From a virus, in IMG/VR virus record IMGVR_UViG_3300046757_000637, positions 1 through 20,718 of that record: 20,718 bases of DNA; one strand, given 5' to 3'. How positions within the stretch are numbered: position 1 is the first letter of the stretch; each line of letters begins with the position of its first letter. Positions 4,770 to 7,438 of this stretch are shown here, one piece after another. The notes under the pieces were generated by a model that searched no databases, had not been told where the DNA came from, and saw only the letters and a program-made list of their open reading frames with translations. The position numbers and the translations under genes were made by a program.

Positions 4770-6386
4770 ATGAAAAGTTGGAATAGTTTTTCAAATCAAC
4801 TTACCGAAAAAAAATCTCCTAAAGATTACGATGGAGACGGTGTAGTTGAAACTGGTTCTAAAGAACACGCTGGAGTAGTTCACAACGCTATTCAACGTGC
4901 TAAGGGTAAGAAGGCAGACGGCAAAGATACTCGGAAGGAAGAAGTAGAAAATATTGACGAAACTGCACTTGGTGATAAAGCAAGAGCAAAAGCAGTTGAA
5001 ATGGGACGTAAGAGACGCAGCACCAAAGAGTATAAAGCAGGTGGTGCAAGAGGCACTGGTAAGAATGAAAGAGCCGCATATGATCTTGCTAATGCTCAAC
5101 AAAGCACTAATGCTGACTTAGGTAGTCAGAAAAGAACTGATAAATCTTCTGGTATGCGGGGTCATCAGAATAAATCTGTTAAGAAGACTGGATCATATGA
5201 TTACGGTGCCGTCTTAGATAAGAAAGATCCTAAGAAGAACCCTAAGCATACTGCTAATAAGAAGACTACGAAAGAAGAAGTTCAACAAGTTGATGAATTT
5301 GTTGGTGGCAAACCTGGAGACGGATATATTGGACATCCTAATCTAGATATCAAAAACCCACTTGCTAAGAAACAAGTTAAGGGTCCCACTGGAAATCAAG
5401 GACTTGCTGGTAAACTTGGTGATAGAAAGATGAGAATTGATAGGATGACTAATAAAATGCTCAATCAATCTCTTGAACTAGAAGGTGAACTGGTTGACGA
5501 AAATATCGGTAGTGCTGTAGGTGGAGCACTCGAAAAGGGTGCAAACTTCATGAAGAGAAACCCAGTAGGTAAAACAATCCGTAGTGTTTTGAAACCAGTT
5601 GGTTCTGGCGCGGGAACTGCAAGACCATCTGTAAGGACTCAAGATACAATTCGCAAGAATCAGGCGGGAATGGAATCTGTCGAACATCAAGGCGAAGTGG
5701 TTGACGAGGGTAAGAAAGAACTCGATAGAGAAAAGAGAAACAAGATGTTCCGCCGTGCTGGTAATCTTTCCAGAGAGGCACTTAAGGGTGGTGACAAAGG
5801 AACTGAGGCAGGTAAGAAGTCTGCGAAGATCGTCAAGGCTATCAACAAAGATAATGAGGGTAAAGATAGAAACGATGTTAAAGAGGGTTATGGCGAACCC
5901 GATGAGAAGTTGGTGACTGGACGTAAGATGTTTACTATTCCTGATGCGGAGAAATCTGCAGCAGCTGCACGTCTTAAGGAGAAGGCTAGAAAGAAGCGTG
6001 AAGAAAAAATGAAGGAAGAAGTGAAAGTAGAAACTCCAGTAGTTGAAGAAGCAGAATCTAAGTCACAACAAAGACTGATGGGTCTTGCACTCTCCGTCAA
6101 GAGAGGTGACACTCCAATGTCTTCCGTAACTCCACAAGTTGTGAAGATGGCTAGAGAGATGAAGGAAAAGGATCTTAAGGATTTTGCAGGAACCAAACAT
6201 GATGGTCTTCCTGAAAAAGTAAAGTCTGAAGAACCAGAACTTTCCTCACCTTTAGTTGAGTCTTTAGTTGAAAGTGCTGCACAAAGAATGGCAGCAAAAG
6301 CAAGAAGAGAGGACGCACAGGCGAAGAGAGTTGATCGGCAGTCTTCAGGTGCTCAACAGAGAGCGGGGTTAAACGTAAAAAAGTAA
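4770..6386 (+). CDS. Charged late protein, zero-frame product of a frameshift gene
   Basis: A 538-residue, very Lys/Glu/Arg-rich, largely disordered-looking protein. The N-terminus MKSWNSFSNQLTE then K again resembles a capsid-targeting peptide with an L-T-E cleavage site at residues 11-13. Residues 16-31 (SPKDYDGDGVVETGSK) hold a DxDGDGxxE calcium-loop-like motif. Four short repeats of the type E-V/L-x-x-V/I-D-E (near residues 60, 172, 240 and 310) could be prohead-protease sites or spacers. Residues about 428-490 (SKSQQRLMGLAL to TKHDGLPEKV) resemble the small phage and bacterial domain I recall as DUF3008. Together these suggest an internal head or core protein. The ORF ends immediately after the heptamer A_AAA_AAG. 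A -1 shift there would continue for 351 more codons to 7438 and give an 889-residue form. Confidence 0.82.
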   Translation: MKSWNSFSNQLTEKKSPKDYDGDGVVETGSKEHAGVVHNAIQRAKGKKADGKDTRKEEVENIDETALGDKARAKAVEMGRKRRSTKEYKAGGARGTGKNERAAYDLANAQQSTNADLGSQKRTDKSSGMRGHQNKSVKKTGSYDYGAVLDKKDPKKNPKHTANKKTTKEEVQQVDEFVGGKPGDGYIGHPNLDIKNPLAKKQVKGPTGNQGLAGKLGDRKMRIDRMTNKMLNQSLELEGELVDENIGSAVGGALEKGANFMKRNPVGKTIRSVLKPVGSGAGTARPSVRTQDTIRKNQAGMESVEHQGEVVDEGKKELDREKRNKMFRRAGNLSREALKGGDKGTEAGKKSAKIVKAINKDNEGKDRNDVKEGYGEPDEKLVTGRKMFTIPDAEKSAAAARLKEKARKKREEKMKEEVKVETPVVEEAESKSQQRLMGLALSVKRGDTPMSSVTPQVVKMAREMKEKDLKDFAGTKHDGLPEKVKSEEPELSSPLVESLVESAAQRMAAKARREDAQAKRVDRQSSGAQQRAGLNVKK

Positions 6387-6417
6387 CTCCCCCTGAGAAA
6401 GGCAAACCTTCTCAGGG
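6377..6417 (+). promoter_or_regulatory. Programmed -1 ribosomal frameshift signal
   Basis: The heptamer A_AAA_AAG (6377-6383) is in the reading frame of the upstream ORF and is followed directly by TAA (6384-6386). After a 7-base spacer comes a stem: CCCTGAGAA (6391-6399) pairs perfectly with TTCTCAGGG (6409-6417). A bulged A and two further G-C pairs close a CAAA loop. This heptamer is the one used in E. coli dnaX, and the spacer length is in the usual range for -1 signals. A Shine-Dalgarno-like stimulator upstream is weak (AGAGAG at 6358-6363 or GGGG at 6365-6368). Confidence 0.85.
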
Positions 6418-7438
6418 AAGAGGAAAGGGTGCTACGTCTGCTTATGAAAGGTCTGCCGCAATTCGTGGTGCGACCAAAATCAAAGCTGAGAAGGAAAAGA
6501 CTAAGAGACAACAACAACGATTTGATAAAGAGGCTGAAAATAGAGCCCGTAGTAAAGCCGATCGGGCAGAAAATCAGGCCCGTAGTAAAGCCGAAAAGAA
6601 ACAACAGTCTCTAGAAAGAGAGAAAAAGGCCAAAGAACAGTTTAAAGATGAGAAAAAAGTAAAGAAAGCCCAACAAAAAGCAAAAACTGCTCAGGATTCT
6701 GCAGACGCTAGAAAGGACAAAACTTCAAATTATGCTAAGATGGCAACATCTTATCAATCTAAAGTTGCTAGTTCTTCTGGTCAAGGAACTGGTGCTAGTG
6801 ATGCAACCGCTGCGATGATTTCTAATCTGGGTAGTGCTGCTAAAGCTGGAATAGGTGCCGTTGGTGCTGTTCAGTCTAAGGTTAGAGAAGTTCAGAAACA
6901 GAAAAAGGCGGATCAACTCGCTAAGAAGGCTAAGAAAAAAGAGAAGAAGTTTGATAAGAAGTATAATGAAGAAGTCTTCTATGACTGGAGAGAAGAATTT
7001 CTACATGAGGTAGAAAAGAAAGGTGATAAAAAACAAAAAAAGATCATTGATGTAATGAAGGGGAAGAACCAAGTTGAGTTCAATCCTGTATCTGAGGGGA
7101 AAAAAGATTACTGTGATTGCGGCCGCGGTTGTGGTAAAAAAATCTGTGAAAAGTGTGGTAAACCAAATAGACCCGAAAACATCAAAGAAGACATGAAGGG
7201 CATGTCCCAGAAGTCTGGTGACAAAAGAAGCACCGATAGTGGTGCGGGCATGACTGCAAAGGGAGTAGCTAAATATAATCGCCGCACTGGTGGTAATTTA
7301 AAGACTGCTGTTACTACTCCACCCTCTAAGTTAGATCCAGACTCAAAGTCAGCAAAACGTAGAAAGAGTTTCTGTGCTCGTTCTAAAAGTTGGACTGGTG
7401 AAAGAGGAAAAGCTGCACGTCGTCGTTGGAATTGCTAA
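6383..7438 (+). CDS. -1 frame extension of the 4770 gene (C-terminal part)
   Basis: This frame is open from just after a stop at 6332-6334 through 7438, but has no ATG until 6740 and no ribosome site there, so frameshifting is the best way to express it. The first 118 codons are rich in Ala, Lys, Arg, Glu and Gln (ARSKADRAENQARSKAEKK) and should form a long charged helix. Then follow a Gly/Ala/Ser-rich stretch and another Lys/Glu helix, EEVFYDWREEFLHEVEKK. Next is a Cys cluster, CDCGRGCGKKICEKCG, of likely zinc-binding type. The C-terminus contains GMTAKGVAKYNRR, KRRKSFCARSKSW and ends ARRRWNC, resembling a small conserved phage domain I recall as DUF6321. The isolated ORF 6740-7438 (232 residues) is probably only the end of the fusion protein. 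The basic, Cys-rich end suggests nucleic-acid contact inside the head; this is inference. Confidence 0.78.
   Translation, partial: VTPPEKGKPSQGRGKGATSAYERSAAIRGATKIKAEKEKTKRQQQRFDKEAENRARSKADRAENQARSKAEKKQQSLEREKKAKEQFKDEKKVKKAQQKAKTAQDSADARKDKTSNYAKMATSYQSKVASSSGQGTGASDATAAMISNLGSAAKAGIGAVGAVQSKVREVQKQKKADQLAKKAKKKEKKFDKKYNEEVFYDWREEFLHEVEKKGDKKQKKIIDVMKGKNQVEFNPVSEGKKDYCDCGRGCGKKICEKCGKPNRPENIKEDMKGMSQKSGDKRSTDSGAGMTAKGVAKYNRRTGGNLKTAVTTPPSKLDPDSKSAKRRKSFCARSKSWTGERGKAARRRWNC

Follow-up and report, generated by a model that had tools for sequence, protein, structure and literature searches.

The gene at positions 4770-7438 of the window, the stretch of 20,718 nucleotides of viral DNA analyzed here, is very probably decoded by −1 programmed ribosomal frameshifting, to judge from comparison with its relatives. 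This reading had been proposed in a preliminary description of the window, and it is now supported by a conserved signal, by coding in a −1 frame lacking a start and by the existence of single-frame relatives. Matches found by megablast among phages of Synechococcus and Prochlorococcus identify the window as a fragment of a T4-like cyanophage.

Results

Putative frameshift signal in the window

Features of the gene are listed in Table 1. Positions 6375-6386 read GTA AAA AAG TAA, with the heptamer in phase with the ATG at 4770. The upstream ORF encodes 11 Lys-Lys pairs; only one of them, at its very end, is encoded by A_AAA_AAG. Downstream of the stop codon, the sequence CCCTGAGAA (6391-6399) pairs perfectly with TTCTCAGGG (6409-6417); the resulting hairpin has z = −3.3, and one of 200 shuffles was equally good. 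The first ATG of the −1 frame is found at 6740 and no GTG or TTG occurs earlier, which leaves 118 codons without a start, as the preliminary description had it. The predicted products are 538 and 538 + 351 = 889 amino acids long. Direct reading of the window showed that the heptamer, the TAA, the stem and the limits of the −1 frame had all been placed correctly, and that the heptamer does lie in a short overlap, put earlier at about 50 bases and amounting to 49 nt downstream of the TGA at 6332-6334. The spacer had been described as 7 nt following the TAA; its length is correct, but the TAA is counted within it, so that wording was slightly imprecise.

Table 1. Features of the probably frameshifted gene in the window
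Feature	Position	Strand	Remarks
Upstream 0-frame ORF	4770-6386	+	538 aa, Lys-rich, modular; product of normal decoding; homologues in L001, L002, L003 and L168
DUF3008 (PF11450) module of the upstream product	6051-6221	+	hmmscan E 3.3e-13, residues 428-484
TGA closing the −1 frame upstream	6332-6334	+	Frames overlap by 49 nt; overlap equal in four relatives
−1 frame ORF	6335-7438	+	Coding from about 6383 to 7435; 351 aa gained by slip; stop at 7436-7438
Shine-Dalgarno (SD)-like GCGGGG, candidate stimulator	6363-6368	+	8 nt 5′ of the heptamer; GCGGAG in relatives; effect inferred
Slippery heptamer A_AAA_AAG	6377-6383	+	Final two 0-frame codons
0-frame stop TAA	6384-6386	+	Abuts the heptamer; TAA in 5/5 clade A members
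Putative stimulatory stem-loop	6391-6417	+	Arms 6391-6399 and 6409-6417, perfect 9 bp; GG/CC extension possible with one bulged A
DUF6321 (PF19846) module of the −1 part	7235-7402	+	hmmscan E 1.9e-11, residues 285-340 of the downstream part

The gene is flanked by an NMNAT/cytidylyltransferase gene on one side and by a gene of unknown function on the other. Searches of phage DNA with it yielded short matches only, and in most tblastn matches the DUF6321 C-terminus alone was aligned. Rfam gave chance-level matches only, and no tRNA genes were found in the window.

Close relatives

Four contigs (L001, L002, L003 and L168) and the window make up clade A, which comprises five sequences only. In each of these contigs A_AAA_AAG_TAA closes the upstream ORF, whose product ends with ...ELNAKK, and the −1 frame encodes the downstream part; the overlap is 49 nt in all, and the spacer is 6-7 nt. 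All four have a hairpin directly 3′ of the stop (z from −4.0 to −5.4), which is kept while the encoded peptide differs (PPEKGKPSQGRG vs PSEKPTSGSQRKS). Because MAFFT placed the loop of the window hairpin wrongly, each sequence was folded separately and the stems were compared by hand. Counted from the loop, a pair that is C-G in the window is U-A in the other clade A members; this compensatory change is the only case of a stem pair altered on both sides. A 6-nt in-frame insertion in L168 is confined to the loop and leaves the stem intact. The check on homologues suggested earlier was therefore borne out, as heptamer, stop, spacer and stem are kept and the flanking protein sequence diverges. 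Relatives with 5 or 7 A, which were to count against frameshifting, did not turn up: scans permitting 4-9 bases at the A-run recovered the same four contigs, all with six A.

Around the clade A junction, variable sites are not numerous enough to reveal a frame switch, and dN/dS was used for this reason. Over the 118 codons that follow the heptamer, the stretch in which the window lacks a start, dN was lower than dS; by this measure the −1 frame is under purifying selection there.

A second junction and the base rate

Mechanical scanning of the collected loci identified 11 more distant contigs (clade B), in which ...AKAP[VE]KK is encoded at A_AAA_AAG_TAG, with exactly six A in all. The overlap is 31 or 37 nt, and several hundred amino acids are encoded downstream, including DUF6321 where tested. 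Substitutions fall in third positions of the 0 frame before the heptamer and in third positions of the −1 frame after it. The first start codons past the junction are 7 to 93 codons away.

The base rate of such arrangements was determined on 917 distinct ends of ORFs encoding at least 150 aa. The class of interest comprised ends at which the −1 frame stays open over 80 or more codons and offers no start within the first 25 codons past the stop; the slippery sequence was not a criterion. A_AAA_AAR was present within 6 nt of the stop at 11 of the 12 ends in this class vs 26 of the 905 others. Fisher's test gave p of about 1e-15, which, the sequences being related, indicates a strong association and not a true probability. 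The same test applied to the +1 frame gave two such cases.

Comparison with a dnaX-type cassette revealed an X_XXY_YYZ heptamer in 0-frame phase, as well as −1 coding past the 0-frame stop without its own start in clades A and B. Conserved 3′ structure at 5-9 nt is present in clade A and in S-PM2 and S-RIM32 (see below); it was sought at the clade B junction and not found. SD-like elements are GCGGGG or GCGGAG at 8 nt and AAGGAGG in S-PM2; the GGAGG of clade B is also present in single-frame relatives.

Cultured phages

A third junction (clade C) was found in the cultured phages S-RIM32 (gp085/gp084), S-PM2 (p142/p143), P-HM1, P-HM2 and MED4-213. It consists of 'EKK' at A_AAA_AAG, then TAG, TAA or CAG/CAA TAG, then V-x-x-P/x-V-E-V/I-M-P. 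The two parts are annotated as two genes, except that the downstream part is unannotated in MED4-213. Both S-PM2 (AJ630128, about 107470-107620) and S-RIM32 have AAGGAGG upstream of the heptamer and a 10-bp stem after 7 nt, in which 10/10 pairs are kept. Five of these pairs nevertheless vary between the two phages, one by a double change (A-U to G-C) and four on one side only. In S-PM2 the annotated GTG start of p143 falls within this conserved stem, and the codons before it evolve as −1-frame codons; the predicted fused junction is ...MKEETEKKVKKPVIEVMPEIDD... Start codons of clade C are 3-8 codons from the stop, so reinitiation is possible there, unlike in clade A. In MED4-213 (L339, 2303-3165) the gene between gp16 and gp17 is distributed over two frames, compared with the intact PHM2_112 of P-HM2, and has no slippery heptamer.

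Single-frame relatives and other genes ending in A-runs

At the same position after the NMNAT gene, S-SCSM2R_176 encodes DUF3008-like and DUF6321 modules in one frame of 815 aa (the DUF3008-like match, at 22.5 bits, is slightly under the Pfam cut-off of 24). L021 and L029 read through the clade B junction in one frame, yet they retain GTAAAAAAG there. These homologues show that both halves belong to one protein. Single-frame homologues had been listed as grounds for rejecting a frameshift if they differed by one base at the A-run; they do exist, but they differ by larger inserts. Past the heptamers of L021 (3918) and L029 (2601) the −1 frame runs into a stop after 7 codons and 1 codon, respectively, which is a dnaX-like layout. 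In principle, two forms of different length could be made from the same site whichever layout it has, as reported for dnaX of different bacteria (PMC5009743). We infer that slipping may take place in the single-frame genes as well.

A-runs were also noted at the ends of other ORFs. In clade D (L014 7662, L030 7657, L037 7426; also L016 and L017) a modular Lys-rich gene has A9 before its stop and a −1 frame of 180-440 codons; the length of this run fits transcriptional slippage too. In L344 (S-SKS1, HQ633071; 2315) an open −1 frame of 178 aa lies behind an A_AAA_AAG located 30 nt before the stop; this break splits a CWKGY module and so may be a mutation or error and not a programmed site. The annotated start of SWZG_00152 in S-SKS1 is 48 codons late. 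In other genes (L160 4795, L018 2555, L171 5076), ORFs ending in A-runs have open −1 frames of about 107-197 codons.

The protein and its probable link to the virion

The protein consists of DUF3008 upstream and DUF6321 downstream, with Lys-rich segments making up the rest. Positions 7100-7185 encode a Cys-rich, zinc-ribbon-like module, CDCGRGCGKKICEKCGKP, which is also present in L001 and absent from L002 and L003. In the window, segments beginning with KPGDGYIGHPNLD, with NIGSAVGGALEKG (followed by NPVG) and with GKKEL succeed one another in this order; in L002 the first two are swapped, and the borders come after V/I/L-x-E. Eight [VIL]xE motifs were observed in the window against 2.9 expected (14 of 2000 shuffles). 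They are enriched in most clade B members and not in clade D. [LIV]xE is the cleavage consensus of the gp21-type prohead protease. In the window gene, L001 and L002, modules are reordered or inserted with borders after [VIL]xE, and S-x-E-P-E-G-E-x-[VI]-x-E is repeated; these are possible prohead-protease sites. A prohead protease of gp21 type (Peptidase_S77) is encoded by G003, a relative of 239 kb; Pfam detected no protease domain within the window protein.

Three syntenic S-SCSM1 genes (91-93) carry virion-protein annotations: the NMNAT gene, its successor and a gene of 69 aa that matches the DUF3008 module. Virion proteins of S-SCSM1 were identified by mass spectrometry (PMC9602691), and the cytidylyltransferase T4-GC190 was detected in S-SM1 virions (PMC3037559). 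The window gene may be late and head-associated, as the preliminary description had it, and the detection of related genes in virions backs this view (PMC9602691, PMC3037559). Judging by these relatives, its product is probably a virion protein, and it is plausible that this modular protein is processed.

Discussion

Mechanism and alternatives

On arrival of the ribosome at A_AAA_AAG, tRNA-Lys would occupy both the P and the A site. The stem-loop 7 nt downstream and the adjacent stop codon, perhaps together with the SD-like GCGGGG upstream, would then promote a slip, in which a fraction of ribosomes re-pair one base back and read on in the −1 frame. The stem, the adjacent stop and the SD-like element are what would be expected to stimulate such a slip. 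Without a slip the 538-aa protein would be made; the 889-aa form would gain the Lys-rich charged region and the DUF6321 module. The two forms may be modular virion proteins required in unequal amounts. Where AAA and AAG are read by a single tRNA-Lys, A_AAA_AAG is particularly prone to shifting (PMC5009743). ARAGORN was applied to the tRNA loci that Rfam marks in two picocyanobacterial genomes, 38 in Prochlorococcus MIT 9201 and 40 in a Cyanobium, neither of them necessarily the host of this phage; tRNA-Lys(UUU) was found and CUU was not, and having only tRNA-Lys(UUU) is the condition that makes A_AAA_AAG slippery (PMC5009743).

The same arrangement could arise if one gene had been split, either in the A-run or in the GGGG lying 12 nt before it, by a recent inactivating indel or by an error made in sequencing or assembly. 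One added base in either place would join the frames, and single-frame homologues exist. However, the same frame break with six A recurs in five clade A and 11 clade B contigs obtained from different samples, conservation of the upstream protein extends to its last residue and cultured isolates share the design; as a general explanation an error or indel is refuted, and for this gene it is extremely unlikely. Two separate genes, the downstream one beginning by reinitiation or internal initiation, would agree with the GTG or ATG starts annotated near the stop in S-PM2, S-RIM32, P-HM1 and P-HM2. Yet the window offers no ATG, GTG or TTG for 118 codons, a stretch which relatives retain as protein; the first starts in clade B vary in distance, and the S-PM2 GTG is embedded in a conserved stem behind codons evolving in the −1 frame. 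We regard separate genes as improbable.

An A-run is also a substrate for transcriptional slippage, by which an A added to the mRNA would make a ribosomal shift unnecessary. Bacterial cases involve runs of 9 A (PMC5009743), a length seen in clade D (L014, L030, L037), but the run in the window is only six A long, and a conserved stem at a set spacing and an in-phase X_XXY_YYZ are ribosomal signals, which makes slippage by the polymerase very improbable. The commonest phage frameshift, following the same −1 logic, is that of tail assembly chaperones (PMC5009743, PMC10885494), and the short and long forms might accordingly serve tail assembly only. A G/GT identity failed on both gene order and chaperone similarity: no tape measure gene follows, the neighbours being the NMNAT/cytidylyltransferase gene and a gene of unknown function. 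Moreover, the products, at 538/889 aa, are far larger, the modules are DUF3008 and DUF6321, and the syntenic genes encode virion proteins, so there is scarcely any likelihood of a tail chaperone.

Significance and comparison with known systems

The signal is present in abundant marine phages and in the cultured reference phages S-PM2, P-HM1 and P-HM2, in which the downstream part appears as a short gene of its own or has no annotation. A predicted virion component becomes testable in laboratory strains, and frameshifting, known from only a few phage genes, gains a further gene class. One slippery site occurs in frame-swapped layouts, each of which predicts a short and a long product.

Retroviral and totiviral Gag-Pol offer a possible analogy, given modules that lie between [VIL]xE motifs and are shuffled at them, and a gp21-type protease gene in a relative. 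Unlike Gag-Pol, the window protein has no Pfam protease domain inside it, and cleavage here is hypothetical. Tentatively, and with more doubt than confidence, one might suppose that T4-like marine phages use a Gag-Pol analogue built of small basic virion modules shuffled between prohead-protease sites. Frameshift cassettes at several junctions would set the copies of downstream modules per head, and the layout would vary by lineage (the short form arising by termination or by slip) with two products kept.

A close parallel in signal is E. coli dnaX (tau/gamma), which shares A_AAA_AAG, a 3′ stem-loop at short spacing, an upstream SD-like element and two products from one start. Unlike dnaX, the window gene is an unrelated phage gene, the slip yields the long product and the SD-like spacing is about 8 nt; in dnaX it is 10 nt. 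For Chlorobium dnaX a reversed layout has been proposed, in which the 0-frame stop abuts the site as it does here (PMC5009743). Frameshifting in phages is well known, including that of tail chaperones and capsid proteins (PMC5009743, PMC10885494). In T7/T3 gene 10 and the capsid gene of Lactobacillus phage A2, a −1 shift close to the gene end extends the virion protein at its C-terminus, as predicted for the window gene (PMC5009743); however, the window gene is not a major capsid gene, its extension is 351 aa of other modules and there are several junctions in the family. Phage tail chaperones G/GT likewise fuse two overlapping ORFs by a −1 shift, but gene, position, size and family are all different. 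In the searchable literature, which is largely that with open access and excludes preprints, searches on DUF3008/DUF6321 and on frameshifting of cyanophage structural genes gave no report of such a shift in this family. The decoding device is a known one; what appears undescribed is the gene class, the several junctions, the frame-swapped layouts and the recurrence in a family of shuffled virion proteins.
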